A stretch of DNA of 64,000 bases from positions 14,579,820 to 14,643,819 of the forward strand of contig NC_135248.1 of assembly GCF_947623445.1 (NCBI RefSeq). Reading direction: 5' to 3'. Below are positions 2,517-57,200 of this stretch, piece by piece. The translations under genes and the position numbers were made by a program. This stretch comes from Clavelina lepadiformis. Lineage: Eukaryota; Chordata; Ascidiacea; Aplousobranchia; Clavelinidae. The notes beneath the pieces are model-generated. The model saw only the letters and a list, made by a program, of their open reading frames with translations. It ran no database searches and was not told the DNA's origin. The stretch's first letter is position 1. Every line of letters begins with the position of its first letter.

Positions 2517-2710
2517 TTAACACGTTCCCTGCGTTGTGACCCACCGGTGGGTCGTACAAAAAAAAAACTGTTTTTTTTACGTCCACGGCGATACGACTTA
2601 TTGTGTCATGCGTAAAATTTTGCTACTAAGTTGTGACCCACCGGTGGTTCTTACGAAAAAAATTACTGTTACTACATTTTTGCCGTTTTTCCTGTTTCAA
2701 TCTGTATAGT
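2517..2710. repeat. Twin palindromic repeat next to TTAA, piggyBac-end-like
   Basis: A TTAA (2517-2520) is followed by CACGTTCCCTGCG and then the self-complementary core GACCCACCGGTGGGTC. A second, slightly decayed copy (TGACCCACCGGTGGTTC) starts about 100 bases later, each followed by an A-rich run. A TTAA next to a terminal sequence with an internal palindrome is the layout of piggyBac-family element ends. A degraded piggyBac transposase lies 2 kb away on the minus strand, so this could be its 3' end. No matching partner end was found. Confidence 0.4.
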
Positions 2711-3160
2711 ATATAAATTAATGTATAGTAATTCAATATGTATATAAATAGTGAAATTTTTTGTTATTTTATTACATTGAAAAAGAACCTTTGTCGCATA
2801 ATTTTCAGTGAGAATGTTTCATTTGAAAGCAGGACAAGCACAAATATGGTTTGTTCTCGCAGCCTTCACAATAGGTTGATACTTTTCTAGCCGTTTTCGA
2901 TGCTTTCTGTGATCCTTCGTTCAAAGAATTCATTTCATAACAACCCAAGCACCTTTATCGGCTTCGGTTCGTTTCTCTCACCATTAGACAAATGATGTAA
3001 TCTGATATAAATAGACTGAATACGTCTATTGGCCAAATTTTGCCTTGTAAAGGTTCAGCCTGAATGCACAGAGTTTCTTGACCAGTGAACCCAAAATTCC
3101 TCTGCCCAACACTGGTAGCAGTCCAACTATTTTGAAGCGAGGCTAAACCAAAATTACCAT
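2711..3160. other. No recognisable feature
   Basis: AT-rich sequence between the palindromic repeat and the Mutator-like pseudogene. The reading frames here are short and unlike any family I know. Confidence 0.4.
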
Positions 3161-4306: not shown

Positions 4307-5087
4307 CTAAAAAATGTACTTTTTGGTTAAATTTAGTCAAAAACTCTTTACTTCTAATTACTACTTATTAGTTATTACTTCTAATCATTACTTTAACTAA
4401 GTAATGAATTTAGGATGTATTTTACTTGTTCAGTTAAAACAAAAACTAGAATAGCTACAGCAAGTCGATCTTTTATGACGTTGCACAGATTTGTAAGGAA
4501 CGAAAAAAAACAACATTTATGATTTGAAAAAAAAAATGCTATTGTGATAGTAAGTATCTTAACAAAACGTTAACTTTTGTAGATAAAGGTGATATGATTC
4601 CTACACACAATATGAAAAGTCTTTTGAGTTTACAGCAGGACCCATGTTAATCAATTTACGTCGTGCAGTTTTTGCATTCTGTAAGCTTCCAGTCTCCGTT
4701 ACCACACACTCAGCAAGTTAACCTGCTGCAGTGACTGCAAACAGTAACTGTATTATTTTTGCAACCTTGTCCCGCACATTTCCTTCGTTTTCCAGATGGT
4801 CTTTTCTGTGCTGGGTTCACTTCTTTCTGGACCACTTACTTCCGCTTCACCACGTAAACATCCTTCAACCCCTCAAAAAACTTGAGTATGAAGCTTCGTC
4901 GGCTGATGTTGCTACCCGAACCTTTTCTGTACAGAATCCAGGAATTTAGCGCTGCTATGTCAAGTAGGTTTGTCCAAACAGCCAAAGGCCATCGTCTACT
5001 TGCTGCATGGGCTGTGTATTTTCTTGCCATTTGGTCGAAAAGGTCCACGCCTACCTTGTTTTGGTTGTAGAATTGTATAGCAGTAGG

Positions 5088-6922: not shown

Positions 6923-7740
6923 GCAGTAGGTTTCTTTTTTTCTGTTGCATCAGTGCTTGGGCTGTTGTGCATTGTCGATAAAAGTTTAACATTTTTCTGT
7001 TGTTTTCACTGGAAATTCACAAGCATGCAGTTTTCGGTAAATTGTAAAGAACTTGCAAACTTGTAAATTGTGAAAACTTTTCTTCCTCTCCTATTGTTAT
7101 CTCTTTTAAAAGTCCTTTGCTGTTGGGTCGAACCGTTCCTATAATTTCATATTTCTTTGGCTTAGCAAACCAGCAAAATGAACACTAGTAAAAAAGTTAT
7201 CTGTTGTGATGTTGCCATTTCTATCCAAGTTGCTTGTAAGTCTTATCACAACATCTTCGGCAAGAGGTCTGCCATTTCGCTGATCTTTTTCCAGAGCGCC
7301 GAGGTACGGCAAGATATTACAAACATATTTGGAGCTCACCTCAGCTAGTACCCAAAACTTCACCCCAAATTAGTCCGGTATGTTTGGCATAAAAACAATG
7401 AAAGGACGTTCTTCATCGGAAACAACTGCCCATCCACTGTTAAACTCCAATCCGGCCTGTAGCTTCGTAAGCAATTAGAGACCAATGCTTCCATAGGCTC
7501 ACGAATGTGTATAAATTTATCGGTTAACAGTCTCTGACTTAAGCAATCTTTGTTATCAAATCTAATATATCTTTTTACTTCTACAAAGTCAGCTCTTGAC
7601 ATAGTTTCCCTGAAGATAGGAGGGCCGTACTTTTCACTCCACAAAAAGTCGACAGAATGGCTTTAACCGTAAATCCCCATTGCGTACTGTAAGGAAATGT
7701 AGGCTTCCAGCTTTTCCATTGGTAAAAGGAAGTTGGGCTC

Positions 7741-8347
7741 ATGTTAGGTAGGTTCTCTTATTGTATGTGTTTTTATGGGGATTAAAATAGAGTTGCCAAC
7801 AAACAATTTCCAGCAATCGTAAGGGCTACTAGAAGCTCTGTAGCAAACACGGACAAAGTATGTGTATGACCTCATACATAGGCGCCAAAGCTTACAAAAT
7901 GTTGGTTTTAAAAGTTAATAGGTGGGAATTCCCCGTGTCAAGGATTGTTGTAAAAACACATAATAAAATAACATATCCTTCTAATCAACGTTATTTGTGA
8001 CAACAGCCATGCTGCAAGTTTTACGGCAAAAAATTAACAACATTCTTATACGCACTATTCATTCATTGTCTATTATTTAATTATTATTCATTTTTTAATT
8101 TATTCGCATCATCTTTAGTTTCGCTATTCTCTTTTTGCATCTGTCGTCCCAAGGTAATTTTTGGTCATTATGTTTGTCTGTACAGGGGTAACTTCCGTAA
8201 CACCAGAGACGAGAAAACACTTCCAACAAAAGCATATATAACCTTTTCACTCGAACTGTATTCATTTGAAACATACACACACACACATGACATTCAAAAC
8301 AAGAGTAACGAAAAGAACATAATAAAATGCACTGGGAAGTTAAAATA
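7741..8347. other. No gene recognised; (CA)n at 8276-8288
   Basis: AT-rich spacer between the piggyBac and ZMYM-like hAT remnants, with a short acacacacacac run. No terminal repeat for either element was recognised here. Confidence 0.4.
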
Positions 8348-8350
8348 ATA

Positions 8351-8812
8351 TCACTTGGAAAAAGTATTCTGGCGAAAGGGACTGCGACCAATCCATTCAT
8401 TGATTATAGAATTTAAGTCAAGTTTGTCTGCTCTTTTCTTTAACATGTTTAAAATGCAAACGTGATTAAGCCGTTTCTGAGACATGGTCGTACGCAAATA
8501 AGTTTTCAGGCGACGTAAAGTACTGAAAGATCGTTCTGCTTCACAGGCGGTACATAGCAATGACAGATAAATTCGGAGCAAGGTCAGAACATTTGGAAAT
8601 AAATTTTTATAGCATGCATCGGTCTTAAAAAACTCACAAAAGTCATTCACAGAAACTAGCCCGAGATATGGAGTAAAATAAGTCTCTATGCAGTATTTTG
8701 AGCAAATTCTCGTATCTGGAATTCTCCCACCAAATAAATACTTTTCACAAAAGCAGCCAAAAAGCCTTAATTTTAAACCAACACTGACATGAACTTGACC
8801 TAGACTCAGCAA
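8351..8812 (-). pseudogene. hAT transposase C-terminal fragment (ZMYM1-like group)
   Basis: The minus-strand frame reads FPNVLTLLRIYLSL then CEAERSFSTLRRLKTYLR, TTMSQKRLN and LNMLKKRADKLDLNSI. CEAERSFS.LRR.K is the hallmark of the hAT dimerisation domain in the group that includes ZMYM1-like transposases. Only the last ~150 residues are present and no start codon or N-terminal domains are seen, so it is a 5'-truncated copy or a last exon. It differs in sequence from the hAT element at 5088-6922. Confidence 0.8.
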
Positions 8813-10290
8813 ACACCATTACAAATTGACGTCACTTGCTCGCTGAACTGAAAAAATTGACATCACTGAACGAAGCATATGATCGATGGGTTTTATTTTC
8901 TAGCACTAAGCACCTAACAAAGTTATCCTGATTGACAATACTTCTTTTACAATGATCGGTTTAATATAAACAAATATGCCTCAGTAGCAATGCAGTTTAA
9001 TGTTTAAGTTTACGTGCGATGGCCGAACGTCCTTTGTATGATCAGCCTCAAGCCTTTTTTTCACTTAAACTAGACCAAAAACTGTTTTGTATTTATAATC
9101 GACTCGCAACAATATCAGCACAGTTAAAAGTGTGTACATGAAATCATTGTGAATCAATGCACACAGAAAATAGTGCGGCATTTATTCATGCATAATTATT
9201 TTCTGGAAACCCAGTAAACCATTTTTTTGCAAAGCAGTAATTATTCCACTCCCACATATAATCCACGTAAGTAATTGCTTTTTAAACCGTCTAATGGAAA
9301 AATGTTGTTTTTCAACTGTAAATAGTATGTCTTCAGTTTTTGCAGGGACAAGAAAAATAACATACGGCATGTACCATAATTACAGCATGCTTTGGTTGTT
9401 TGTTGATGTCGTGTTGTTGAAATGACAGTGTGTCAGATTTCAGTAAATGGCATATCTTGCTGTTTGCTGACTTCTTTTAAAGGAATTTGATGTGCTATTA
9501 ACAAGTACAAGTTACTATAACACACAATGGTCAACTTATGTTAAAAACTCCTGTTTTTAACTTTACATTCCAACATTATCAAAGCTAATAGAATTAGGTG
9601 AGATTTGTAAGGAAGTAAAATACGCAAATGCCCAAATTAAAAAACAAAAAACTGAGAAAAAAGATCATAGACTTAGTAGCAGCATCAAAAGCTTCAAGTT
9701 TTGTGCATAACCCTGGTTTAAAACTTAGAAGTTTGGTGGACATTGTATGAAATGTAAAATAAAATATCCTAAAAATGCGTGATTTTAAAAAGTTAACATG
9801 TAAAAAAGCAAGAAAACTAAAACACAAGTTGCTATAATGCACTTTTGAAGTGGAACACAGATGTATGATTTCTATGTGTATTTGTGAAAATATTCTTACT
9901 TGCTGTTTGTGTTATTTTCTTCTTTACTGAAACCTCTTTTTCTTGAAAACATTTTCTTTAATGTTTTAAAATTATTTCTTTAGGATTTTCTTCTATTTTA
10001 TCGTATGTCTGCAGGAATTCATCTTGTGAGTTTTCAGATTCAGCATTTTTATTACTGTTTGTAACAGCTCTGCTGTTTCTGATAATTTATTTTCAATTTG
10101 TGTGATCTTTTTACTTTCCAAGTTCTGCAACTCCCAAGCTTGATACATTGAAGGGTGGATTGTGTTTTCTCTACTTCTTTAGTATTTAGCATTAGCTAAG
10201 CTATTAAGTTAAGTGACCACTCGCGGCAATAGGTAAATGCCACACTTTTAAAATATTTGGTCCTAAACAACTTGGTATAAAGACTCAGAC
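8813..10290. other. Long AT-rich non-coding stretch
   Basis: Only short reading frames without codon structure or family resemblance. T-rich runs near 9880-10000 give spurious minus-strand frames. I see nothing to annotate. Confidence 0.4.
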
Positions 10291-13456: not shown

Positions 13457-13990
13457 TTACGGAGTGTCCAGATACCGCGCAGGTCTCCTGACTGGCCTGC
13501 CGTGTCTCGTAAGTGGTTCAACATTCGCCGTTTCTTCGTCACTGTTATTTAGGTTGATGTGATCCAAAAACACGCTTTCGAGATGTCCGTCATCTAGACC
13601 CGAAGGACCTTCGTTAACAGTTGGTTGTAAATCAGTAAGCATATCGATAAAAGATGGCTTCAAACGATCGATACTGACGCTGTCTTGGTGAGTGCGATAG
13701 TCCAAAATAAAGTGCTTTTTAAAACGCGAAACTACCTTAAATGGGCCTCGGTATGGTCTGTCTAAGGATTTTTGGGTTGCATCGTTCCTGAGAAAGACGT
13801 GAGAGCAGGTGAATAAGCGAGGGTCAACGTGAACTTTCCTGTTCGTGGGGAAACGAGGAGCTTTGTATCTCACTGTCGTCATGAACTGGGACAATTCTGC
13901 CACAAAATTTGTGTTGGGCAGTTGCATCTGGTCACGTGGTGTAAAAAATTGCGCTGGGAGAAGTACCGCAGTATAGTAATATACTGTATA
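13457..13990 (-). pseudogene. Ty3/Gypsy retrotransposon pol, integrase C-terminal end
   Basis: The minus-strand frame (stop at 13457) reads LLPAQFFTPRD, FVAELSQFMTTVRY, HVDPRLFTCSHVFLRNDA, LDRPYRGPFKVVSRF, HFILDYRTHQDSVSIDRLKP. This series (THVFLR.D, PYEGPFKV, VSIDRLKPA) is the GPY/F-type tail that follows the integrase core in Gypsy-like elements of animals. Above about 13990 the frame runs into an AT-repeat (tatatatag) and homology ends, so only the last ~175 residues of pol survive. No gag, reverse transcriptase or confirmed LTR is visible. Confidence 0.82.
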
Positions 13991-14211
13991 TATAGTTATA
14001 GTACCAGTGCTGCTCATCTTCACCAACATGCTCTTTTTGTAACCGTTCTCCAAAAAAACCTTGACTGGTTTATTTCAGTTGTTTAAAACAATAAGTATAT
14101 ATACAAATATGCATGATTTGCACAAACCTTACAGACTGTACTAAAATAACACAATTGTCCTTCTGTAATAAATAATGGTGCAAGCAAAGGACAAGTTCAG
14201 CTTAGCTTAGC

Positions 14212-18614: not shown

Positions 18615-19695
18615 AAGGTATTCTCAGTTACAACAAAGGGTGCACCTGCTATGATAGGACGACACTGGATTTGTGACTCTTGTTGAGAAAAAGATTGGGC
18701 ACCTTGTTATGAAATTGCACTTCATTATTCTTTAAGAAAACCTTTGTGGGAAGATTTCAAATTCAGCTCTTAATGATGTAATGTCAACCGTAACGAATTT
18801 AATAACAATCAGACAGTTTCGATCTTTGCTTGAAGTGATGAACAGTGCATACCACGACGTGCCCCTGCACTGCAGTGTCAGGTGGTTAAGTCGCGGTAAG
18901 GTTCTCTTGAAATTTTTAGAATTTCTAGTCGAGATAAGGGTCTTTTTGGCAGGACAAGGTATACCGTGAACTGGAGGATAAAAAGTGGCTTGTATAACTT
19001 ATGTTTCTTGCCGATATCAACACCCACCTTAACAACTTAATCTTCGTCTGCAGGGTCCGCTACAAACGCTGATGAATCTTTTTGAGGCATGGAAAGGTTT
19101 TGTAGCTAAAATGGATATCTACACACAGGACATCCAAACTGCAACTTTTCGCTACTTTAAATACCTGAAGGTTTTCTCAGTGGATCACCAAGTCAACATA
19201 GTTCAAATTGGTATGTACATGAGGGATCTAACGTCTCAGTTTTGCAATAGATTTCAAGATTTTCAACATTTTGGTTCATTATTTTTTCTCATCAAGCCCG
19301 AAAGCAGCGAAGACTTGACCTTATCTGCATTTGAATGAATGGACATCGAAGAATTCCAGATGAAGCTGATCGATTTCAAAGCATCCTTTTTGTGGACATC
19401 GAAATTCGTCGAATTGCGGAAATCGCTGGAAATGATTGAAAACAATCAAACAAGCATTTTGACTTGCTGGGAATCTTTGCCAGAAACAATTAGCTGTCTT
19501 ACGAAAATGTCAATAACTTTGTTATCTGCATTTGGATCCACTTACTTGTGTGAACAATTATTTTCGCACATGAATTTTATTCTCAGTCCACATCGCAGCC
19601 GACTTACGGAAGATCATTCGGAAGCATGTGTTCTACTTAAAGTGTCTAAATATAATCCTAATACTACAGAGCTCAGTAAGAAAAAGCAAGGATAA
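18615..19695 (+). pseudogene. hAT transposase pseudogene, GTF2IRD2/SCAND3-like group
   Basis: Plus-strand pieces follow the order of this group: VTTKGAPAMIGRH (18625), VMSTVTN, QFRSLLEVMNSAYHDVPLH, SVRWLSRGKVLLKFLEF (to 18970), then after a frame change LADINTHLNN, LMNLFEAWKGFVAKMD, CNRFQDFQHFGSLF, IEEFQMKLIDFKASF, and the dimerisation signature LLSAFGSTYLCEQLFSHMN with HRSRLTEDH. A TGA at 19336-19338 splits the frame, at least two frameshifts lie between 18640 and 19070, and the DNA-binding finger and first catalytic Asp are absent. Such transposases gave rise to host genes in mammals, but this copy is clearly dead. Confidence 0.85.
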
Positions 19696-32611: not shown

Positions 32612-34080
32612 GGTTCATGTTGTAATCAGCAATGTAACGGTGCTAATTAGTTATTGTTATGTACTGTAGTTATTCCTTCAATTCCACTACGTATGGCAAG
32701 GTATAAAGTGATGGGATTCCGAGGTTTTGTGAGTTTCTTCAGTTAATTCATTGTTAAAATCGTTCAGATAATATTAAAAAAAGACTTAGACTATATTTAA
32801 ATAGTCCTTGTGAACCCTGTTTGTTACATATCGTTCGTGCTACAAATTATTGCTTGTGGCAAATTCAATTTCAGCCCGTTTGCTCTGTCTAGCGTTTAAT
32901 ATTGAACCGGCAGTGACGAATTTAATTTGAGATGGTTGATTGTAAGAGTTAGGTTAACCATATTGACTTTATTTAAACCTTAAATTGCTGCTAATACTAA
33001 TTAATAATATTCAATATCACTTTGTATACCCATGCAGTACCTCTATGTCTCCACGAAGACCGTACATCTTCCGTGATAATGTGCTTCCAGTTACAGACAT
33101 GACGCTTGATTGACATACACCTACAACACTTACAACTCTAATAATGTTAACTGTCGATGTTTCTAACTGGTCCGTGAAAAACTTTTGCTTTTACGTCTGA
33201 GCAGAACTGTTCTACTAGTTAGACATCGCCAGCTTAACTTTCTTGTTGAATATACTTTGAAAGATTTTCCTGGAAATGTTCACAGCTGAGTCGTCGCCAG
33301 CCACTTGTTTCATTGATTGTTTTTATTGAAACAATTGTTAACTTGTAACCGGAGATTTTTGAAAGGGTTTTTATAGGCCTCGTAGTTTGTATTATGACAC
33401 ATTCCTCGTTTGTGTTCGTATAGAATTTCTCCAAAACTTTCTTTTCTGACTGGCTTAAAAAACAATTTTTCACTGATCATCTGCCGTACGTTTAGTTTAT
33501 TAGGCTAAGCTTTATTTTTCGCGAACATACTGTTTTTACTCCATTGCATAAGCCGCAGTTTATGTAGAACTTTGCATCGTCATTTTCGGGCTTACTTTCA
33601 AGGGCGGCTCACTGTAGATGCGTAAGTTCCATTAATCATTACTTGCGGCTTGCATTACATTAGACTGATTAGATCATTCATTACATGCGGCTACTGTTGT
33701 TTTCACTTAAACATGTTGAACACTGCAAGGGTGTCTATTTCCTAATTTTCTAATAATTTTTAAAATACCAAAAATGTGGATACATGGAATAAAATCAGAA
33801 GAAAAAACATTCGAAGATTCACTAAACCATGTAACGTTATTTATTGGAACGTTTAAAGCTGGGTCAAGACAGGTCAAAATTGTCGGAGAGACGGGGGAAC
33901 ACCTGACACTACCGGATGACTCCGCCACTATAAGCTAACGACAGTGTCAGTTGTATAGTTGTTTTACTCGAAACTCGAATAAAACATAACTTTGATTTCT
34001 AAAATCGTTTGTACGTTACCGGTACCAAGGTGACGAAAAGTCGTCATGCTTCCGGTTAAACGAAGGTTTTTCGCTTGTCA
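32612..34080. other. Spacer; possible alternative final exon of the channel at 33038-33113
   Basis: After an acceptor (acccatgcag) at 33037, the frame in the phase left by channel donor 30644 reads STSMSPRRPYIFRDNVLP and ends VTDMTLD at TGA 33111-33113. This is a plausible C-terminus, but the 2.4-kb intron is longer than others in the gene. Nothing else was recognised. Confidence 0.3.
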
Positions 34081-34902
34081 TCGTTTATGTGCAAGTCATT
34101 CAGCCTTTTTCATATATTTGGCGGTGTTCATTTTTACAATTGTTGTAATGGCTTAGTTCGGGACATTTACCTAAACCGAGAATGGTTTAAATCATTGAGA
34201 GTTCTAAAGGACAATAAAATAATAAAAACATTAACATCAAAGTGTAAGCACTTTAAAATGACCAAGTTATTGGCAGGTTACGTTGTTCTAATGAAATGGC
34301 TGGTTAGGAGAAAATACACACAAACATCCTTACAGGTCAAATTATGATAAAATCAAAGATATAAAAGTTACAGTTAACTTAGGTGGTTGATCAACGACAT
34401 TCTTATATTCGGATTTAATTTTTGTTTAACCTAAAGACGAGTTATTCACTTTTAGATTCCGATGCGAAATCAACTTAATAGGAAAGAAACTTCAAAAACT
34501 TACTTTTTGAATCAAACTCCTTCGCCGGTTTCTTACACTTGCAAGTCCAGCATCCGTTGTCGTCTCTTTCACGGTTTTTACTTTTACACCTCAATTTGCA
34601 TTGCCGTTTGGGGCATTTACCTAAGAAAACATTTATTTAAATCAAAACGATTAATTGCAAGATAGAAAAAAGTATTGACGTCATGCGGTAAGTGATCTAT
34701 AGCAAGCCATGGATTGATTTTGCACCATCACTTCGTCAAAGATAAAGTGAGATGGAGAAAATTCATAATTATTGAAAACAAGTCAATGCTAGATTGTGCA
34801 GCGTTCTTGAATTAGTTAAAACTAATTAATCACAAACTTACGTGCTTCTGTGTTCACCAAAGCGATGATAAGAATGGCCACGACGTAATATTGCATACGC
34901 AT
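34081..34902 (-). pseudogene. Decaying divergent copy of the astacin gene 5' exons
   Basis: Exon 1 (34902-34842) encodes MRMQYYVVAILIIALVNTEA, one residue different from the intact gene. Exon 2 (34620-34504, the same 117 nt) still encodes the first antistasin-like module with all six Cys and a good donor. Exon 3 (about 34178-34081) reads GLGKCPELSHYNNCKNEH then KG*MTC: the codon of its fourth Cys is TGA, another Cys is lost, and a TAA follows. No astacin, kringle or TSP1 exon follows. It could at most make a short secreted one-module peptide by reading past exon 2; most likely it is a relic of an inverted duplication. Confidence 0.78.
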
Positions 34903-35093
34903 GGTGAATTCAAGAGCAATTCCTATGACTAGGCCTACTCTCTGCAATTAAAACAAAATTTTAGAAGATAAAGAAACGTGGTTTCCTATATCCCCTAATA
35001 CTCAAACAATCTAAACAAGAGCGCACTCGCTTCTCGTTCCTTGCTTTCCCCAGGTCGGGTCTTTGCAGTCTGCCACATCATATCGTTCCTTCC

Positions 35094-35101
35094 TATTTAT
35101 A
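35094..35101 (-). promoter_or_regulatory. TATA box of the left (pseudogene) copy
   Basis: TATAAATA on the minus strand, 192 bp upstream of ATG 34902, at the position matching the TATA of the right copy. The surrounding sequence is conserved between arms. Confidence 0.6.
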
Positions 35102-35410
35102 TCAGTCGATCATTCAATTAAATTGTAAACAATCGACTTTGGTCTTCGTAGTAATAGTACGCGACATGTGAAATTTTATGATTTCTTATTAATCACCTGT
35201 CAACATGGCCGCTTATCCACCTGGCCATGGTTATGTAACTTATGCTGGTTTATTGTACTGACCCGGTTTGTGACCGCTGTGGCCTTGGCGGTTATTTCTA
35301 TTTGCAAAATTTTTTTACGGAGTTTCGATCACCAATATTATTTTTCTCCGTTTTCCTAAATCTAATCATTATCGTAGACTATGACAATTTCAAAGCGCGT
35401 GACGTCATAA

Positions 35411-37179: not shown

Positions 37180-37486
37180 TGTGACGTCACACGGCCTGAA
37201 ACGGCCACAACTTACGATAATAATTAAAGTATGGAATTTGAAAACAATGGGTTATCTTTCGAAACTAAGAAAAAACAATTTTGCAAATAGAAATAACCGC
37301 CAAGGCCACAGCGGTCACCAACCGGGCCAGTTCAATAAACCAGCATATGTTACATAACCATGGCCAGGTGGATAAGCGGCCATGTTGACAGGTGATTAAT
37401 AAGAAATCATAAAATTTCACATGTCGCGTGCTATCACTACGAAGACCAAAGTCGATTGTTTACAATTTGATTGAATGATCGACTGA

Positions 37487-37494
37487 TATAAATA
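37487..37494 (+). promoter_or_regulatory. TATA box of the astacin-kringle-TSP1 gene
   Basis: TATAAATA, 186 bp upstream of the start ATG 37680, inside a block conserved with the inverted left arm. A purine-rich aggaaggaacgag follows. A short 5'-UTR intron ending in aattgcag (about 37648) is possible. Confidence 0.6.
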
Positions 37495-37679
37495 GGAAGG
37501 AACGAGATAATGTCGCAGACTGCAAATATCCGACCTGGGGAAAGCAAGGAACGAGAAGCGAGTGCGCTCTTGTTTAGATTGTTTGAATATTAGGGGATGT
37601 AGGAAACCACGTTTCTTTATCTTTTAAAATCTTGTTTTAATTGCAGAGAGTAGTCATAGGAATTGCTCTTGAATTCACC

Positions 37680-40600
37680 ATGCGTATGCAATATTACGTC
37701 GTGGCCTTTCTTATCATCGCTTTGGTGAACACAGAAGCACGTAAGTTTGTGATTAATAGGTTTTAATTAATTCAAGAACGCTTCACAATCTATGTGTGTT
37801 GTAGCATTGACTTGTTTTCAATAATTATGAATTTTCTCCATCCTACTTCATCTTTGTCGAAGTGATGGTGGCGCTAAAGTGCAAAATCAATCCATGGCTT
37901 GCTATAGATCACTTACCGCATGACGTCAATATTTTTTCTATCTTGCTATTAATTGTTTTGATTGAAATAATTGTTTGTTTAGGTAAATGCCCCAAACGGC
38001 AATGCAAATTGAGGTGTAAAAGTAAAAACCGTGAAAGAGACGATAACGGTTGCTGGACTTGCAAGTGTAAGAAACCGGCGAAGGAGTTTGATTCAAAAAG
38101 TAAATTTTTGAAGTTTTGTTTCCTATCAAGTTGATTTCGCACCGGAATCTGAAAGCAAATGACTCGTATTTAGGTTAAACAAAAATTAAATCCGAATGTA
38201 AAAATGTCGTTGATCAACCACCTAAGTTAACTGTAACGTTTATATCTACGTTTTTATCAGAATTTAATTTCTACAACTGTTTTATTTAGGTCGAACAATT
38301 ACTTATGTTATATAACGCTGTACACTGTACAGCGTACAGTGTACATAAAGGTTTACCTGATTCGAAATAAATGCTCCATTTTTGCGTTGGTGTAAGTCTG
38401 TAAGATATCTATGTTGATATCATTTCTCTCAACTTGGCGTTTGTCAACAGATTTAGGTGAATGCCCCGAACTGAAATGTGACAACAAATGCAAACCCGAA
38501 CAACGCGAAAGAGACGAAGATGGTTGCATGACTTGCAGGTGTACGGAAAATTTTGGAGATCTACGTTTAACAGGTACTTGTAACGACTTTTATTTGCCTC
38601 TTACTGGTAATGTACAAACAGTAATCAGCCCCGTATTATGTTTTATATTAAGTTTAATGGATAAACTATAGTCCATAGTGAAAGTGGCACGCACGAGGTC
38701 AACGTGTACGCCGAATTTCTTTTTCTTCACGCCCATTTATAATAAATAAATAAGAACTGGTTACGTGAACTCCAATTCATAATAAACAGACAATTGATCC
38801 GTCTGTGATTCACAATAAACAACAAAAATTGATCCCTCTGTGAATGCCATCACGTCAAATTTTGTGTCTTTGCACATCTCTTGTCGGCCTACTGATAAGA
38901 GGTCTCCAGCAATCAAGAATTAACTCCCAATGTTTTGTGGAAATGTAATTTTTGTGCAATTTTACTCCACTTTATTTGACAAGAAAGAATAACACCGGTT
39001 ATAATGTGAAATTATTTCATGCTAGTTAAATACTTTAATAAATTAATGCGTTCTTAAATGTCTTAACAGAAAGACAAGTAGATTGGGCAAATAACCAGGG
39101 AAAATATGATGGTGGTGGAGCAAGAGACACGTCATCAGTGGTCAGAAAATGGACGAACGACGTCACAGCTGATGGTTATTACAGGATCCCCTTCAGTTAT
39201 TCAGACGAACTTTGTAAGATATTTGTCATACTTGTGTGAGAATTACCCAGATCACATATCTTGCTTCATGGTAGCGATAGCTCAGAGCTAGAGTGTACAC
39301 CATCATACTGTTAGTTAAAGGATTGTAGAGTTTTTGATTTACTTGTTTACCTGGTTGATTTGTGTTAACTGCTATTTCCAGTTTCTCATCCTGAACACCA
39401 AAACAGCATCAAAAAAGCTCTTTCAATTGTAAACGCGCTGACATGCATCGACTTTCAACCAGCAACGAAAGTAGACAGAGACCAACTGCATTTTACTGTT
39501 GGTCGAGGATGTTGGTCTTACATTGGAAGGAATGGTGGCAAACAAGAGGTGAGTAGATTTGAAAAGTTTGCAATTACTATCTTTTGTCAAGATTCAGTTC
39601 TACTTCAAAACGTGTTTAGTATTCAGATATTACAATGTGTCATTGCTTTTGTTTCATTCTGAGATCGAGATCAAAAAATTAACTTCTTTCCCCTGGCACA
39701 GGTTAATCTCTCCAATCATTAATAAGTTTGCTTGCTTCTATAAGGTATCTATTGACAAAGGATGCTATAGCACTGGAACAATTTTGCATGAACTGATGCA
39801 TGCTTTGGGATTCTGGCACGAACAATCACGAGGTGACAGGGACGTGTTCGTTGAAGTGTTAAAGCAGAACATTATATCCGGTAAGCGATTGTCGAGTTAT
39901 TTAAAAGTGTTTCCATTTGTTTTCCATTCACAACAACAACATATTTCAATGGATTTTATCAAAATTTTACCAGGCATGAGAAAAAACTTTTTCAAGAAGG
40001 ATCCGTCTCTTGTTGAATCGTTTAACTCGGGCTACGATTATAACTCTGTCATGCACTACAGTGGCTACTCGTTCTCGAAAAACAACCATCCAACGATAAT
40101 TAACTTGTGAGTTGGGCTGCAGAGTAAGCTTAAAATATTTTACGAAATATCATGCGTTCACTTTTACTTGTTCATGAAATTACTGTAGTCATAGAGGTAA
40201 TTAATTTACCTGAGCTCTCATGTTTTTGAGTTTATAACAATGTCAAAATCACAAGCTTTATGCTCTTATCATCGCCGCTATCCTCGAACTTGTTCACAAA
40301 TACTTCACTTAAATCTGCAGACAAACTGGTGAAGCTGTGGTCAGTCAAAGGATCATGTTGTCCAGTGAGGACCAATACCAGCTTCGAGCCATGTACAACT
40401 GCAATGGCAAGCGCAGAGTCCCGGAAACGACAGACTGCATGCACTCTCTGGACCAAGGGGCTAGTTATAGGGGCACAGCTTCAGTAACGGAAAGCGGGTA
40501 CGCTTGTCAACGATGGGATCGCCAATCACCACATTCACATGGCTTGTGAGTCTTGTTTTGTTTAAACTGTACTGAAAATAATTTTTCTTACCTAATTCTG

Positions 40601-42975
40601 TTGTTGTGCGGATGTAGAATCTCACAGCTGTATTTTATATCTGTATGTTTCCAGGGTTTTTGGTTTTTATTTAAATTTTTTCCTTCTTTGCATGTAAAAT
40701 ATTATTTATGTTTTGTTAAAATATTTTATAAATTGTATTCCAGTGATCCATCTCACATAACTGGGGCCGGATTAGAGAATAATTACTGTCGCAATCCTGA
40801 CATCAAAGATAAGCCTTGGTGTTACACCACGAACCCAAATAAGGAATGGGAATATTGCTCCATCCCAACTTGTGACAATGCAGGTTAGCTTCGCTTGGTT
40901 TCTTTATTGTTTTACTAATTAAAAGAAAATTATTCTGCTGAAGACTAACTCTGTATTTTTAGTTAGAAGTAAATTTACATTGAAGAGTGGACTGTATCCT
41001 ATTCTTTTCACAGCATCACCTACAAAGTAAACATGACCTAACACAAAAGTAATGGTCACATTGTTTTCAGTTCCAGAGCTTGTCCAGCCTCAACCACCCA
41101 CCAACAATCGTGGCTCCTGGTCTGACTGGTCGAGTTGGGGACAGTGCAGCTCTACTTGCGGAAGTGGCAATCAATACAGGTTAGCTGAACATAGAAAAAT
41201 TGGCTTATTCCTTTTCATTCAAAGCTCTTTTTTGTGTGTTATGTAATACAGCGATACAGAGCGCATCAAAATCTTTATTCAAGTTGGCTTTCTGTATCAG
41301 CTACTAATACAGAAAGCAATTTGAGGGCAATTTATTTGCAATTTCTTCCTTCCAATTGAATATAAGAACTTTGATTTCACGTGTACAATTTGTACATTAA
41401 ATGAACAGTTTCTTGCTCCATATTGGCAACAAACATATGCAATGGATTCATAGAATGAATGAATATTGTCATGAAATATCCAGTGTAATAACTAATAACA
41501 TAACCCTACCTATTGCCTGAGCTACATAACCCGTCTTCCTATCCGTAACAATGCATTTGACCACTGAAGTAGTCACTTTGAAATTCGTGACGGTTTAATT
41601 CTTCTTTTTCAGGACTCGTCGCTGCATCGGAGCTGATGTTGGATCCGAGCAATGTCCTGGAGAACACTGGGAGAGTAATCCTTGCGGTGCCCCCTGCCCT
41701 AGTGGCCCGGCATCTCCCGCCACAGGTGAAGACATCTTATAATTCAATGTTTTACTTGTTGGAGCTAGTTGTTAGGAGCAGCATGACCATCAACTTATTT
41801 GTTTGCAGGAAACTGGCAGCCTTGGATGTCGTGGTCAGCGTGTGACGCGGTGTGTGTGAAAGGAAACAGCGGACACCGATATCGCGTGCGTGCTTGCAGC
41901 AGTGAATACTGTGAAGGAGACACAATAGAAGAAGAAGTGTGCTCTCAACCAAGCTGTCCGACCTGTAAGTGAAGTTATTAATTGCACGAACAAAATAAAG
42001 GGTCCATTTGAATGACTTGCGTTCCACTGACTTTGATACAAGTTCATGGAAAGATAATTGAGTCATTCTGAGAAACCTAATTCATGAAACCGGCGTTTTT
42101 TGTTTCGCTTGTGGTTACAATTCGTCAAACATTCGTTTACCCATATAAGCTGACTGTTTGTCGGACTGACAATTATTTATGACGTCATCTTGTATTTTTT
42201 TCTTACCTCTTGAATCAACTTAAAATGCGCAGATGACAGCGGCGATTGCTTCAATGAGAACAACCCCGCTGCGTACCGAGGAACTCTCTCCGTTGCAAAG
42301 AATGGCGCAAGCTGCATTCCATGGAAAAACGCAAAAATGTAAGATGTGGTTTGTGCGGAGCTGAAATTGAATAGAACGTCGAAATTTATCAAGGGTTGTG
42401 TCTGCAGAAATGTTGATGTGTTTCCAAACGCCGATTTGCGTAACGATTACTGCCGCAGTCTGGGTGGTAGCGATGGTCCAGTTTGCTTCGTCAAGAAGAG
42501 GAAGACAAAAGCTTGTGCACCTGTAAAGTGCCAGAATAGTGGTACGTTGGCAGACTGTCAAATGACATTAACTGTAGCGTTAACAAACAATTACTCTAAA
42601 AACCTTAATACTTTAAGCTGTCAGTTTTAAACATTTCTCCATAATTTTTTTTAATTTGTCCCGATGAACGTGAAGTGTTTGCAAAACACTGGTAAAATGA
42701 TTAATTTCCTTAAATTCTTTTGGTTACTTTTATTCTATGAATGTGATATCAGTCAAGGAGTTGTTTGTGTATCTTATTTATTTCACTGGCTTGGTCATAC
42801 AGGTGCGTATTGGTCTGATTACTCGGGTTGGTCAGCTTGCTCAGCATCATGTGATGGCGGCTTCAAATACCGAACCAGAAATTGTATTCAAGGAGCCGTC
42901 GGCGAAGGTTCCTGCATCGGCGACGTGGTACAAGCTGAGAGATGCAACATCGAGGAATGTTCCAAGATATTTTGA
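37680..42975 (+). CDS. Secreted astacin metalloprotease with antistasin-like, kringle and TSP1 modules
   Basis: Exons: 37680-37740, 37983-38099, 38451-38573, 39070-39213, 39382-39548, 39745-39880, 39974-40106, 40321-40545, 40744-40883, 41071-41179, 41613-41725, 41809-41964, 42233-42338, 42408-42541, 42803-42975. All phases fit: 678 aa. Order: signal peptide (1-20, MRMQYYVVAFLIIALVNTEA); two antistasin-like Cys modules (21-100, C-x3-C-x3-C-x10-C-x2-C-x-C); astacin domain (~103-315) with the zinc site HELMHALGFWHEQSR (His219, Glu220, His223, His229) and Met-turn SVMHY (Met276, Tyr278); kringle (to ~415, ending NYCRNPD..DKPWCYTT); TSP1 (SWSDWSSWGQCSSTCGSG); TSP1 (WQPWMSWSACDAVC); divergent kringle (542-621); TSP1 (WSDYSGWSACSASCDGG). 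Catalytic residues are complete. The usual prodomain FxGD switch is not seen; antistasin modules, serine-protease inhibitors in other animals, take its place. Ascidian Tast proteases combine astacin and TSP1; this one has more modules. Confidence 0.92.
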
Positions 42976-43068: not shown

Positions 43069-43275
43069 GTGGTAGAGTCCCCCCCCCCATCGACTGGTGA
43101 CAATGTCTGTTATGACGTCATTTTCAATTATCTTGGCAGCAAAATTTTCAACTTTTCTTACCGGAAGATTGATCCCCACAACCACTGTTGAAGTTCTGAC
43201 CATGACGAGCGCCCCTGGTGTCTCACTTTCAACCCTGATGTGGTTTGGGAATACTGTGACATTCCTGAGCGCTAG
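43069..43275 (+). pseudogene. Decayed extra kringle exon downstream of the protease gene
   Basis: After an acceptor (ctcctacag) the frame runs through CYDVIFNYLGS to HNHC, a TGA (43189-43191), then SSDHDERPWCLTFNP, DVVWEYCDIPE and a stop at 43273. RPWC.T.NP..WEYCDIP is the end of a kringle domain. The TGA sits where kringles have a basic residue after NYC (CGA to TGA would explain it). The first half has lost its G.C..W core. It indicates that the gene once continued past its present stop at 42973. Confidence 0.7.
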
Positions 43276-46252: not shown

Positions 46253-49200
46253 TTAATTGGACTGGGCTTGCTTGGAGCTGGCATTTGGGCATGGAGTGAG
46301 AAGGTTGGTTATGTCCCACAAAAGCAAATTCACAAATGTAGTATGTATGGCTTTTAAAATCTGAAGGGTTACTCGAAGCAAAAGTACTAGAGCAAGAGTA
46401 GATGCAAGATGTGTCCAGTATTTTTACATCAAACTACTTGTTCTTCCTACCATTTTTGCTTTTAAAAGATTATTGATCTATTAAATACTGGTATATGTTC
46501 TTAAGGGATTCTTTGACAACATTCAAACGATCAGCGAATTCCCGATCGATCCGGTCTTAATCATCATTATTGTTGCTGTTGTGATGTTTATTCTTAGCTT
46601 CGGAGGCTGCATTGGAGCACTCAGGGAGAACATCTGCTTTTTGAAATTTGTGAGTACCGAAAAGTCTTGTTGTGGCTTAACACAGCGAGTTTCATTCTGT
46701 GCAGTTTTCGCGAACTCCTGTACACTTTCATTAATAGTATGGCCTGGTGAGATGAGTAAGACAACTTTTCTTTGCTTCCATCAATCTAATAATCTTCATA
46801 GCTGGCAGAGAAAGTTTTTTTGGCAAAAAAAAGTTTGGTATAATCAGTGCTTTAACTTTTTGTACATCAAAGTATTAGGTGTAGGATGTTGTTGTCTTTG
46901 TAAGAACCCAGTTAAGTTCAAACTAGGAAACTTTACTACATATACTTAAGGCCTAATATTTGTTTTGTGAAAGTCATGTATGATGCATACGCAGCAAGGT
47001 TTTGGTTAAATGTAACAATAAATCTGTGGTAATCTCATATAATTGTTTTGTTTGGTAGACTGTTAGACACTAATGTGATTAATTTCTTTGACGTTGGTTT
47101 CGTTGTTTTTGAGAACATTGCTTATAACTGAGTTGTAGTTTTGCTATTTTCATTATATGTATTCGGGTCTAAGTCAGAAATGTGCAACCAAATGTCGTCA
47201 CGCTTGGGGTAGCAGGGGACTAGTATGCAAATACATCACATGGTTGTGCACTTCTGCGCTAGACCCAATCTAATTATGTCGTTAAGCGTTTGGGTTATCT
47301 ACTCAAGCCAAGCCATCTACCCTTCTAAACGAATAAGTTGTTGAATATTAACAGTCCTATTTTCATTTAAAATTATTGATACCAGCTGACGCCCAAGCAG
47401 TAGATCTAGGTAGACTAGGTCTTTGTATGACGCACATAATAACATGAGACGCCTGATGTCACAATTGGTTAAAAAGTTATAATTAGACTACTACAAGAAG
47501 CATATAATGTCTCATATTGGGCTAGTCTTATCACAACGGTCCAGTGAGATAAATTGTCTGGGCAGCGCAGCTTCTTTTGCTGTGTCGTCTTATTATAATA
47601 AAGAGGCGGATATTTAGGGAAAGAGAAGATGTTGTTTAAATTGCCTGACTGCACGTAAATATTTTCAAACTGTTGCAAGTTTCCCTATCTGACATTTCAA
47701 ATAGCTAGACAGTAAAACATTCCATTTAAAGGACAATTGCAACCTGGTTCATTCATCAAACATTGACGTCAATTGCAACACGCTAATGTTAGTCAGATAC
47801 TAGCTCTACCTAATACAAATAAGCTAAACTATAAAGATAGTGCGTGAACATATATGCATGTCATGTTGCCATTTCCGCTCAAATTTTTCACCCTTCCATT
47901 TGCTTTTATAGTTTTCCGTGTGTCTCGGCGTAATTTTCTTCGCTGAGCTGATAGCCGGTATTCTCGGTTTCGTTTACAAGGATTGGTTCCACTTGCAGTT
48001 CGCCGGATTCGTCAACAAAACTATCAAGGGATACAGAGATGACGTCGATCTCCAGAACATCATTGATTTTTTCCAGGAAAACGTGAGCTTGTCTTTCGCT
48101 CATTTAGGGGTTGTTTCGCTGTATGCGTGTTGTAACCCGACTCCTATCTGCAGGATCGACCCATTTTCGGGGATCCCATGTGGTAATTATAGTGCTGGAT
48201 AATCTGGGAAGGTTAAGAAAGTGCAACGGCGACGGGCACAAATGTTAATAGGACGGTGCTGCTATTGCCATATGGCAGTCACACGTGATAATAATTCTAA
48301 CTATCTGACATCATATAGTCCTGAAAAGTTACTGTACTTGGCTAATTTCCATCAAATGCGTCCTGTCCGGAATAACCAAGTAGTTGTGATTTGCCGTTAA
48401 GACACAAGCCCACAAATATATGCCAATTGCAAGACAAACAAACGCCTCCCATTCAACGAATATTTGCTGTCTTCTCCAAAAGTAAAGAACTTGTTAAACG
48501 TACTGGATTAACGCGCCAGCAATAAACTGTTGTTATCGGCAGCTGCAATGCTGTGGCGGCGACATTGGACCATCGGACTGGGACAACAACGTCTATTTCA
48601 AGTGCAATTCGGTCGTGATGGTGAACGGGCTCAACTACACCCCTGTCGAAGCCTGCGGGGTTCCCTTCTCTTGTTGTCTTCCGTCCACCCAAGCCGACGT
48701 CATCAACACTCAGTGTGGTTACAGCGTTCGACTTGATGACGAGGTGGGTTTGCGCAAAGTTGAAAGTAAGTTTCACCTTTTTCGACTAAAGGAACCGCGT
48801 TCATCCCGTTTCAAACACATTTTTGCCCTATAGGCTACTTTTTCGTTGTACGTTTCCCATATATTCCCACCGTTTTCGCTAGACACGTGAACAAACTGTT
48901 TGCGAACTTGTGCGTTAGCGCACGTCACTGGTGCTGTCCGTGACGCAACATGCACGTGTAAGGTATGCCTCTGTTACGCATTATGCATTGTTGTTAACAT
49001 ATAATGCGATTTACTTTGATGCCATGTGACTGGCCGTGCACAGCTTAATAATAAATCGAAATCGGTTTAAAGGCAAGATACGATCAATGTTCCCTCTAAG
49101 CTGCGCGCGTGCGCAAATGCGCACTGCTGACACGATCTCCGCGCACAGAAAATCTGTGTTGCGCACAAGAAAATAAGCCAACCTGAATTAAAAATAGAAT

Positions 49201-50195
49201 AAACGCATAATAATGGCCACAGTGCGCACGTGGCACGTCTGATGTTGCTCACAGTGGTCCAAGGGACCGCTCAGAGAGTTAGTGTGTTTGCTCAGACTCG
49301 TGAAAAATTAGAGGGAACATTGGATACGATCCATGTCAACTTTTGATCTTTTGCATTTACGACGCATTAAACTTTTAAATTTGGCGATGAACTGAAAGAG
49401 ATAGAATTAACTGCCGCTTGGAAATAGTGGCTTTCAATTTAATAACGCTATGTTAGGGTCCATTTGACGCTGACCTAACAGCAGGTGTCTAGTGCAACTA
49501 CGTCTTGTCTTCTCAACACTTTCCTAACCCGGGCCCATATACTCGCCTTTATCTTTCAGATCTTCAACCAGGACGGTATCTACACGACAGGATGTATATC
49601 CAGCTTTGAGGAGTTTCTCAGAACAAACTTATACACGGTGGCCGGTGTCTTTATAGGCGTGGCACTTATGCAGGTAATAGAACCATATTTTAAGTCGGTA
49701 CCGTATCACTGTAGGCTACGTTAAGAACTAATTAATTATAAAAATTAGGGTTGCACTGTTTGATTGATAGACAACATACAATCGGCTTTAACAACCATTT
49801 TGCCAATAAATAATAATTGTTGGTCATTCACGAAAGGATCCTATCATTATGACATCATTATGATATTTTTTGGATAAAATGCACCCGTTGTTGTTTTGCG
49901 AGTTCATCTGGGGCCATGCGAATGTTTTCAACAAAACCTCGTGTTATTTGAACTAAAAGAAGCAGAACTTTTTCACCGTGAAATTAAAATTTAGATTGTA
50001 GGCAGCCGATTAATCGGAATATGGTGATTTTCCATGCCCGGGCACTCGTTAATCGACCATTCCATGCATCCTTTGTGGTTTTTCCGAACAAAACTGCAAA
50101 AATTTCAAGTTTTATCATCACTTTTCCAGATCATTCCCATCTGCTTCGCCCAGAACCTCATCAGCGACATCCAGGCAGTGAAGATGGGCTGGTAA
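46253..50195 (+). CDS. Tetraspanin of the TspanC8 class (TSPAN5/14/17-like), first exon missing
   Basis: Exons, all in phase 0: 46253-46303, 46506-46649, 47912-48082, 48543-48743, 49560-49673, 50130-50195 (TAA), giving 248 residues. They encode the end of TM1 (LIGLGLLGAGIWAWSEK), TM2 with GGCIGALREN, TM3 (FSVCLGVIFFAELIAGILGF), and a large extracellular loop with YRDDVDLQNIIDFFQ, the CCG motif LQCCGG, PFSCC and eight cysteines in all. TM4 and the tail AQNLISDIQAVKMGW follow. Eight loop cysteines and the AQNL.SDI.AV tail place it with vertebrate TSPAN5/14/17, which escort the protease ADAM10 to the cell surface and so affect Notch cleavage. Exon boundaries match that family. The N-terminal exon was not recognised. 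Confidence 0.93.
49085..49322 (+). mobile_element. hAT-type MITE copy 1 (238 bp), in a tetraspanin intron
   Basis: Ends CAATGTTCCCTCTAA / TTAGAGGGAACATTG. The 8-bp duplication GATACGAT is at 49077-49084 and 49323-49330. Interior GC-rich with tgcgcgcgtgcgcaaatgcgc. Lies between tetraspanin exons 48543-48743 and 49560-49673, in the opposite orientation to the copy at 56838. Confidence 0.95.
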
Positions 50196-54256: not shown

Positions 54257-57200
54257 AACTAAATGAAAATTGGATGGAAATAAAACCTGCCGTTGCAGAA
54301 GGACTAAAATTCACTGCAAAATACATCGGCATGACCTTGGTTGACTCGCCCAAAGGAGAAGAGATAGCGTCTGCTGCCATCAAAAGAATCGTTGACACGG
54401 TTTGTTTTTTTAGTAAATTGGCAACTATATTTGGTAACTGGTTTTTGTGTGAAGATGTTGTTCTTGTGTTCTTATAGAACAAGGCGTGTGGCAAGAATTC
54501 TGAAATTGTTTTGCTTACCATTTCTCCAAAAGGAATTCACGTCAAAAACGCAACAAATGATGAAGTGTTGTATGACATTGACATCACACGGTTTGTCACA
54601 TGGTTGCTTTTGTTTTTGTTTAACCGTGACATTTCTATTTTTATGATATAAGTTCATATAAATCTTTTCTGCTTACACCACACTGTCTGCCAAAATTTTT
54701 TAAAAACTGTTACCACACTTTCAGAATATCCTTCTGCACTGCTGACAAGATACATGGCAAAGTGTTTGGGTACGTTGCTCAAAATCCCTCAACTGAAGCA
54801 TTTGAATGTCATGGTTACATGTTAGGAAACAGAAAAGAGGTTTGATTTGTATGTTGTAAAAATTTAATACAGTCTGGAGATGATTGGTGAATACTGCCAT
54901 ATTCTGTAATGCACATCAAGGACTTAAGTATGGAATACTGAAGGATATAATGTATATATATCTGTAATGTTTTACTTGACAATAAAATGGCTATAGTTGT
55001 GTCTATATCTATGCTTATTTCTTTTCTAATGCAATTGAAACAGTTATGACGTATATTAGTTTGCACGATTGTATTTCTATGACTGAATATGGTGCTTCCT
55101 GTTCACCAGTGTGATGATTCCCCTAGCATGGGCTTTTAAGCGTGTTGACGTTGTGCCTTTGTTAACCATACATAGGGATATTTTAAGAATAGAAGGCGTG
55201 TCATTATGATTTTCGCTATAAGTAGGGATAATGATTGAGGTGGAGGCCATTTTATTACGCATATAAACCTTGTCAATAACCATACTTGTCATTCAAATAA
55301 CTAGGTTATAAAATAAGTTCATTCGCTATTTTTTGAACAGGCACAGTCGTTGACATTAACAGTCGCTCAGGCGTTTCGTATCGCTTACGACGTTTGTAAA
55401 AACGACGAAGATGTCTCCGACCTTCTTGTTTCAACCAATCACAGATCCGGCGATTCTTCTCCAAGTGTGTCTGGTGAAAAAAAGTGAGTTGGTAAAACCA
55501 ACACCATTCTCATTTTATCATGTTTTAAGGAAAGGTTTAGTGGCTCTTCAAGCAGGTTTCAGTTTTTTATGGTTGAAAGGAAAAAGAACTAGTTGAGGGG
55601 TCCAGCATGTTTGTGTTGAGACGTTTAATGTCGAAATTTCTTTCTTACATTGCAGACAGCTTTTTATTTTGTAAAAATTTAATCGTATCAAAATGCTGGA
55701 GTTTAATTATCGTTTCAGGCCGATGCACAACATCTATCACAGTATCGCAGATTCCAGATACAAAAGGTGAGAATTTATCTGGAATAATTTGTTAATTAAA
55801 AATTGATGTATTTACATTTGTAATAAAATATTCATGAAATATTAATTATTTTGATCAAACCTCCGAAGCTGAATTAGTACGACAGCCAAATCATGCTTTG
55901 AATCGATATTTCCAGATTATCAGATTCCTTTGAAGTCTCAGCCCAGGTAGTTGCAAAAGATACAACAATGACAGACAACATCGCAAAGGACACTCCTTCA
56001 CTAGAAGGTAATAGATTGTGTGTTGTGCTTTAGGTTATGCTTGACTGCTCTATGTCTACTTACCTATCCATTGTCCTGGTCGTCCTCACCGTAACAAACA
56101 TCCTGCCATTATGAAAAATATCAGCGTGGTTTCTGTAGTTTAAAAATATACTGGTTGGCCTTCAGTAAAAATGAAGGCTCTTGTGATGATCAAAACATTG
56201 TAACACTGTAATTTGCATTTTTAAATATGTTTGATATATTAGCAATCCAAATTATTAGATTAATCAACTGTGGTTCTAATTAATTCTTTAAGTCTATAGC
56301 GTTTTTACCATCATTTAATTCGATTTACTTTAACATCGTGACACATCTTGTGTTTTGTTGTCAAATGAAATTCCCATGGTGGACATTTGTTATTTTATCC
56401 TTAAATTGAAGTTGCGTATTTCTGTTGGTGCCATCCACTTAAGAATTCTCCAAACTCTTTGTGGTTTTAGAGAGCGAGATAACTTTGCCCGCAAGATTTG
56501 CAATGAAACCTGCGCAAGTTGCAAAGGAAAAGAGCTCAAATTGTCCGCCTGTTTCAATAGTTCCACCACCGAGCACAAAAGGTAACCCGTCATTATTGGC
56601 TTTTGTCTGCTACCATTCACCTATACTCTGGCTCACTTTGACCTTCTGCTGTTAGTGTATCAACAAAAAGCACTTGTTGCTATTTTTGACTGTCGCGTGA
56701 CATTTTTCATGTCAGCTTCGGCAAACAACATACATTTTTGAGTTATACTGTGGCAGTTATTATTAACTTGTAATGGAGGTTTCACATTTAAAGAAATACT
56801 ATCAGGCAATGTTAAACATAACAAAAATAGTCATAATCAATGTTCCCTCTAATTTTTCACGAGTCTGAGCAAACACACTAACTCCCTGAGCGGTCCCTTG
56901 GACCACTGTGAGCAACATCAGACAGACGTGCGCACTGTGGCCATTATTATGCGTTTATTCTATTTTTAATTCAGGTTGGCTTATTTTCTTGTGCGCAACA
57001 CAGATTTTCTGTGCGCGGAGACCGTGTCAGCAGTGCGCATTTGCGCACGCGCGCAGCTTAGAGGGAACATTGGTCATAATAGAATCCAGGAAAAAATCAT
57101 AATAAAACAGCTCGTCTGATATCAACCAAACTTCATGTCATGTCTGATTAAGAATCATAGAAGTGGTAGGATACGCTGATTACCATCAACATCTTATTTA

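Follow-up and report, generated by a model that had tools for sequence, protein, structure and literature searches.

The window studied here, a 64,000-nucleotide stretch of chromosome 9 of the ascidian Clavelina lepadiformis (NC_135248.1, contig C9 in our numbering), carries a gene (37680-42975, + strand) in which two antistasin modules are joined to an astacin metalloprotease that is followed by kringles and TSP1 repeats. This combination of modules is real: the same animal has a large family to which the gene belongs, so it is no chance product of a single gene model. More important, as read from the genomic sequence, is that antistasin modules are joined time and again to the putative aspartate switch of an astacin throughout one tunicate genome. 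The window gene probably encodes a secreted modular astacin zymogen close to the ascidian Tast proteases, which would be held latent by Asp96, would shed its antistasin modules with the propeptide, and would dock through its kringles and TSP1 repeats.

The gene and its modules

Fifteen exons rebuilt from the DNA give a 2037-base frame that encodes 678 amino acids and a stop. All 14 introns are of the GT-AG type, the frame is unbroken and its TGA ends at 42975. The initial annotation had proposed a single gene with the order signal, antistasin (twice), astacin, kringle, TSP1, TSP1, kringle, TSP1, and this is indeed the order found in the single rebuilt frame. The N-terminus is a short hydrophobic stretch ending T-E-A, which reads by eye as a signal peptide.

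On the whole protein, Pfam calls Astacin at 194.9 bits, TSP_1 in three stretches, and Kringle in two stretches (117.4 bits); kringle 2, scanned alone, reaches 39.9 bits against a Pfam cut-off of 34.3. The catalytic motifs HELMHALGFWHEQSRGDRD and SVMHY are intact and fit HExxHxxGxxHExxRxDRD and SxMHY. Thus, the complete set of catalytic residues claimed earlier is borne out by the zinc motif, the Met-turn and the domain score. A domain search of the predicted protein, also suggested at that stage, recovered the astacin domain, the two kringles and the three TSP1 repeats, and antistasin only when the modules were scanned apart. In the whole-protein scan Antistasin was not called by Pfam; taken separately (cut-off 21.2 bits), module 1 scores 23.9 bits, module 2 20.5 bits and the pair 35.0 bits. 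Such weak scores show how these modules, each of which has six cysteines, could be overlooked. A search of PDB sequences with only the two window modules gave no antistasin match. A profile built from 22 modules of the genome found hirustasin (E 3e-4), with guamerin (E 0.12) and bdellastasin (E 0.33) as weak matches.

A family of antistasin-astacin genes

The genome was scanned over 209.06 Mb in 95 contigs, and all counts from the Pfam scans are lower bounds. Under a joining rule of 4.7 kb, 85 astacin matches form 37 clusters; one of these, C4:16.716-16.719 (loci are named by contig and position in Mb), contains two genes. In 28 of the 37 clusters an antistasin match precedes the astacin on the same strand, at a distance of 391 to 7254 bases, where 0.04 such links would be expected by chance, which rules out fortuitous antistasin matches. 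A regular-expression search of 8 of the 9 unlinked clusters revealed antistasin-like modules in another two, those at C2:19.414 and C2:19.403, each followed by a weak x-x-D-V motif; if both count, the linked clusters number 30 of 37. Kringles occur downstream in four of the 37 clusters, all 67 kringle matches being used. The TSP1 scan, in which 150 of 873 candidates were scored, was not used for counts.

Antistasin matches number 50 in the genome. Nineteen are unlinked to an astacin, and two arrays, one at C4:16.89 and one at C5:14.22 Mb, account for 14 of these; the latter (C5:14218638-14225965) is a ten-match array without an astacin match. Two near-identical exons with antistasin plus GDI precede one astacin gene at L015 (C1:7239087 and 7239646) and are perhaps alternative exons. 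The antistasin-astacin genes at C2:16.29 and C2:24.75 Mb, about 8.5 Mb apart, have equal match scores and spacing, pointing to a recent duplicate or an assembly duplicate, and a third antistasin copy lies inverted beside the C2:24.75 gene.

The module and a putative aspartate switch

Animal astacin propeptides are described as sharing the motif FXGDI, the aspartate of which is placed on the catalytic zinc, an arrangement known as the aspartate switch (PMC9848320). The window protein has NFGDL (Asp96) after its two antistasin modules and ahead of the catalytic domain, and a single exon encodes both this motif and module 2. Module exons were read in 29 linked genes, among them the window gene. 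In 27, the open frame of the module runs on into a switch-type motif with Asp (FQGDI, FEGDI, FQGDV, LGDLRLT and others); when the gene at C9:11.9, which has a serine, is counted, 28 genes have module and motif in a single exon. Alignment of 22 module exons (near-identical copies and C8:12.785 left out) shows the switch aspartate in 21, the switch beginning about 4 to 8 residues past the last cysteine. The initial annotation had placed the antistasin modules where an astacin prodomain would be. This part is not supported: the switch motif in the module exon speaks against a replacement and for the modules as the N-terminal part of the propeptide.

The first of the two exceptions to the aspartate is the paralogue at C9:11.9. 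There, the switch motif reads GSL, with Ser for Asp, the zinc motif reads RELMHALGVWK, the Met-turn reads SVTNY, and the zinc ligands are lost. At C8:15.97, the catalytic glutamate is lost and all three histidines and the switch aspartate are kept, while C2:16.27 has Gln for Glu and likewise keeps the switch aspartate. That the aspartate gives way to serine only where the zinc site is dead supports a zinc-blocking role, and the zinc-dead paralogue devoid of the switch aspartate offers a natural control for the aspartate-switch mechanism. This gene (L011, 1521-5477) retains the module order and the other modules and is likely a pseudoprotease.

Paralogues, descent and selection

The full order, namely antistasin, switch, astacin, kringle, TSP1, TSP1, kringle and TSP1, recurs in three paralogues, at C9:2.74, C9:11.9 and C1:12.48 Mb, which rules out a one-off architecture. 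The initial annotation had called this order unknown from any described protease. No description of the combination was seen in the searches of open-licence papers, and to that extent the statement holds; the genome has four such kringle genes. Each paralogue has one readable antistasin module, versus two in the window gene, and C9:2.74 keeps a remnant of the first. Kringle sequence is found 3' of the third TSP1 repeat in the three paralogues, of which the window gene keeps only a stop-bearing remnant. Pfam domains were also called in two spliced paralogue models. A good signal exon was found only at C9:2.74, the C9:11.9 model having none. Exon lengths are identical to those of the window gene in 11 of 13 exons modelled at C9:2.74, 9 of 13 at C1:12.48 and 5 of 12 at C9:11.9. 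The paralogue exon search left exact lengths free within limits and admitted only exons of the window gene's phase, so that agreement in phase is not independent evidence.

In a rough tree of the catalytic domain, for which 27 of 28 rows were used (C8:15.97 being too short), the four kringle genes cluster together with a support of 0.87, suggesting that the kringles were probably gained once. The antistasin genes form no single group in this 27-sequence tree.

The nearest relative of the window gene, C9:2.74, shares 70% amino acid identity with it. Over 619 codons the nonsynonymous (Ka) and synonymous (Ks) substitution rates are 0.180 and 0.658, a Ka/Ks of 0.27, which shows purifying selection on the window protein as a whole. 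By part, Ka/Ks is 0.30 for the catalytic domain, 0.16 for kringle 1, 0.26 for the TSP1 repeats and 0.18 for kringle 2; it rises to 1.51 in the signal exon, on 20 codons.

Proposed latency, activation and docking

In the mechanism that we propose, a short propeptide would keep the metalloprotease latent by placing Asp96 on the catalytic zinc. The two antistasin modules would form the N-terminal, disulphide-knotted part of this propeptide and would depart with it at activation. Cleavage would probably occur near Gly117-Ala118-Arg119, by a trypsin-like or an astacin-type protease. The activation region could be read in 7 of 15 matches searched, plus an eighth from the paralogue exon search, and 6 of these 8 relatives have Arg-Ala at the expected mature start (NRAAS, DRAAS, PRAAS, QRAVY, GRASA and PRAVS). 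Judged from these motifs, trypsin-like activation is plausible. The activator of the Ciona Tasts is said to need further study (PMC6353882), and a propeptide with the fold of a serine protease inhibitor suggests where to look for it.

The kringles and TSP1 repeats would dock the enzyme on an extracellular matrix, be it the egg coat, the tunic or a tissue matrix. Lysine-binding kringles carry an acidic pair, Asp-x-Asp/Glu. Compared with plasminogen kringles by this rule, kringle 1 reads NPDIK, with D-x-K at the position of the pair, which makes classical lysine binding unlikely for the window protein.

Several points weigh against this mechanism or against parts of it. The model of the window gene is derived from genomic DNA. 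The antistasin matches are weak, module 2 lying below the Pfam cut-off, and full-length scans of the two paralogue models gave Antistasin at 10.4 bits and nothing, respectively. NFGDL is not an exact FXGDI: the Gly-Asp-hydrophobic core is retained and the Phe is one residue off. At C8:12.785, the module exon lacks a switch, and a motif YEADI stands in a later open stretch, in another frame segment. The joint loss of the aspartate and the zinc site is a single event. No Arg-Ala is present at the activation region of C3:5.277, C8:5.38 or the window gene itself (GGG-ARD). Finally, the exon with antistasin module 2 and the switch is weakly constrained relative to C9:2.74 (Ka/Ks 0.81 on 38 codons), so this pair does not establish constraint there; against the more distant C1:12.48 the ratio is 0.18, but with a Ks of 1.8, near saturation.

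What the antistasin modules might do

The leech antistasin domains are described as having ten cysteines, and P1, in the reactive loop, as Arg or Lys where the target is trypsin-like and as Met in the case of guamerin; poecistasin has Arg27 at P1, the residue after the second cysteine of the six-cysteine part (PMC6265900). The rebuilt window protein has no further cysteine before module 1 or between the modules, and thus no ten-cysteine domain. Its reactive loops are C-K-L-R-C in module 1 (P1 Lys29) and C-D-N-K-C in module 2 (P1 Asp70). Of 23 aligned modules, 11 carry Ser at P1 and four carry Ala; Asp is found in three (module 2 of the window gene and those of two kringle paralogues), Gly in two, and Val, Asn and Lys occur once each, the single basic residue being that of window module 1. 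Since P1 is mostly non-basic, trypsin-type inhibition is not a family trait; going by the loops, the likeness to a trypsin-type inhibitor is confined to module 1 and does not extend to the family as a whole. An AlphaFold model of module 2 with the switch was of low confidence (predicted local distance difference test, pLDDT, 68; predicted template modelling score, pTM, 0.36), and its best fold match in PDB, gigastasin, was non-significant (E 3.0).

The chances seem to us evenly balanced that the modules have no inhibitory role and act as a folded cap, an aid to secretion or a matrix-binding part of the propeptide. The cysteines and the junction between module and switch are conserved across the family and P1 is not, and the zinc-dead paralogue retains its module, as would be expected of such a role; the loop of window module 1, which fits an inhibitor, speaks against it.

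It is rather unlikely, although several observations fit, that control across protease classes operates in cis. Here, module 1, through Lys29-Leu30, would bind and restrain a trypsin-like serine protease, for example the activator of the zymogen itself, and activation would free a small inhibitor and so be self-limiting. The loop C-K-L-R-C resembles those reported for poecistasin (C-R-L-L-C), hirustasin (C-R-I-R-C) and bdellastasin (C-K-V-K-C), inhibitors of trypsin-like enzymes with Arg or Lys at P1. The six-cysteine spacing is that of the C-terminal part of leech antistasins, and the Arg-Ala at the activation region of 6 of the 8 readable relatives is in keeping with this reading. On the other hand, 22 of the 23 aligned modules have Ser, Ala, Asp, Gly, Val or Asn at P1, and the N-terminal four-cysteine part of leech antistasins is absent.

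Also in favour of such control, module 1 is kept identical in a head-to-head partial copy of the gene. The two arms of this inverted duplication (34504-35316, - strand, and 37272-38116, + strand) comprise the promoter region, the signal exon and module 1, and are 94-98% identical. Exon 1 agrees at 60 of 61 bases and exon 2 at 115 of 117, both changes in exon 2 being silent, so that the module 1 protein is unchanged. The exons differ at 3 of 178 positions versus 14 of 220 in intron 1 (Fisher p 0.025); when intron 1, the 5' untranslated region and the promoter are pooled, p is 0.084. The copy could encode a free module 1 protein.

Extended to the family, the idea becomes more doubtful still: most astacins of Clavelina would carry an inhibitor-type module on the propeptide, joined to the aspartate switch, and one cleavage would both lift the block on the metalloprotease and set free, or use up, an inhibitor of the serine protease that brings about activation. 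Two protease classes would thus be coupled, and the free module 1 copy would be the version that acts in trans.

The latency device of the initial annotation, in which the antistasin modules replace the prodomain and silence the metalloprotease themselves, is improbable. The modules do lie N-terminal to the catalytic domain and adjoin the switch motif. Nevertheless, the switch motif exists, its aspartate has given way to another residue only in a gene with a dead zinc site, and the known antistasins described in PMC6265900 target serine proteases. We give hardly any credence to an artefact of the gene model, in which separate antistasin and astacin genes were spliced together in the initial annotation, an idea to which the purely genomic basis of the model and the switch-like motif outside the module exon of C8:12.785 lend something: it is rejected on the module and switch motif sharing a single exon in 28 of 29 linked genes (the one with Ser counted), the antistasin match that precedes the astacin in 28 of the 37 clusters and the clean splice borders.

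Features of the window

The exons of the gene, and the partial copies and remnants around it, are listed in Table 1. Downstream, at 46485-48830 (+ strand), lie open frames that look tetraspanin-like by eye. A long inverted repeat (49079-49329 and 56831-57078) has arms 96-98% complementary and about 7.5 kb apart. Open frames at 2-8818 (-), 13460-14074 (-) and 19033-19692 (+) resemble, by eye, the remains of transposons or retroelements.

Table 1. Exons of the antistasin-astacin gene and related features, in window coordinates
Feature	Position	Strand	Basis
Exon 1, signal peptide MRMQYYVVAFLIIALVNTEA	37680..37740	+	signal peptide judged by eye
Exon 2, antistasin module 1 (amino acids 23-49, six Cys, reactive loop C-K-L-R-C, P1 Lys29)	37983..38099	+	rebuilt frame, Pfam, 22-module profile; P1 rule as given in PMC6265900
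Exon 3, antistasin module 2 (amino acids 64-90) and switch motif NFGDL (FGDL 38552-38563, Asp96)	38451..38573	+	rebuilt frame, Pfam, alignment; FXGDI as given in PMC9848320
Exon 4, propeptide end, putative activation region GGG-ARD (amino acids 115-120), start of catalytic domain	39070..39213	+	rebuilt frame
Exon 5, astacin catalytic domain	39382..39548	+	rebuilt frame, Pfam
Exon 6, zinc motif HELMHALGFWHE (39787-39822)	39745..39880	+	rebuilt frame, Pfam
Exon 7, Met-turn SVMHY (40045-40059)	39974..40106	+	rebuilt frame
Exon 8, end of astacin domain and first half of kringle 1	40321..40545	+	rebuilt frame, Pfam
Exon 9, second half of kringle 1 (NPDIK)	40744..40883	+	rebuilt frame, Pfam, kringle comparison
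Exons 10-11 (41071-41179, 41613-41725), TSP1 repeat 1	41071..41725	+	rebuilt frame, Pfam
Exon 12, TSP1 repeat 2	41809..41964	+	rebuilt frame, Pfam
Exons 13-14 (42233-42338, 42408-42541), kringle 2, divergent, 39.9 bits	42233..42541	+	rebuilt frame, Pfam
Exon 15, TSP1 repeat 3 and stop	42803..42975	+	rebuilt frame, Pfam
Remnant of a further kringle with in-frame stop	43126..43269	+	frame reading and kringle scan
Head-to-head partial copy: 5' region (34929-35316), exon 1 (34902-34842), exon 2 with identical module 1 (34620-34504)	34504..35316	-	self-comparison
Decayed copy of exon 3 (module 2), in-frame stop	34053..34176	-	self-comparison

Comparison with known systems

The leech inhibitors hirustasin, bdellastasin, poecistasin and gigastasin resemble the window modules in the six-cysteine C-terminal part and, for module 1, in the basic residue after the second cysteine. 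They differ in their ten cysteines, as described, against six here, and the window modules are fused to the propeptide of a metalloprotease. With plasminogen and HGF the likeness is that of kringle 1, which aligns along nearly its full length, whereas the window protein has no serine protease domain and D-x-K takes the place of the acidic pair.

Other animal astacins have a signal peptide, a propeptide with an FXGDI-type switch and a catalytic domain, to which the putative signal peptide, the propeptide with NFGDL and the astacin domain of the window protein would correspond, and kringle and TSP are among the accessory domains listed for them (PMC9848320). Antistasin is a domain class outside that list, here joined exon-for-exon to the latency switch, and the order kringle-TSP1-TSP1-kringle-TSP1 was not found described there. 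Nor was a description of antistasin in an astacin seen in full-text searches of open-licence papers; in this one tunicate the joining is common and no oddity.

The likeness to the ascidian Tasts drawn at the outset is supported. Tast proteins combine astacin with TSP1, at least two TSP1 repeats defining the class, and the window protein has three. The domain lists seen for CiTast1, CiTast2a-2d and HrTast1-5 contain no kringle or antistasin part; the five CiTasts and four of the ten HrTasts are reported as type II membrane proteins, and HrTast4 is reported to have a signal peptide (PMC6353882, PMC11673157). Five Tasts were found in a sperm-surface fraction of Ciona robusta, where a Tast knockout impaired metamorphosis and a role in fertilisation was proposed (PMC6353882), and four Halocynthia Tasts are transcribed in testis and ovary (PMC11673157). 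Like the window gene, these are tunicate genes in which the astacin domain is followed by TSP1 repeats, and they lie in tandem clusters (PMC6353882, PMC11673157).

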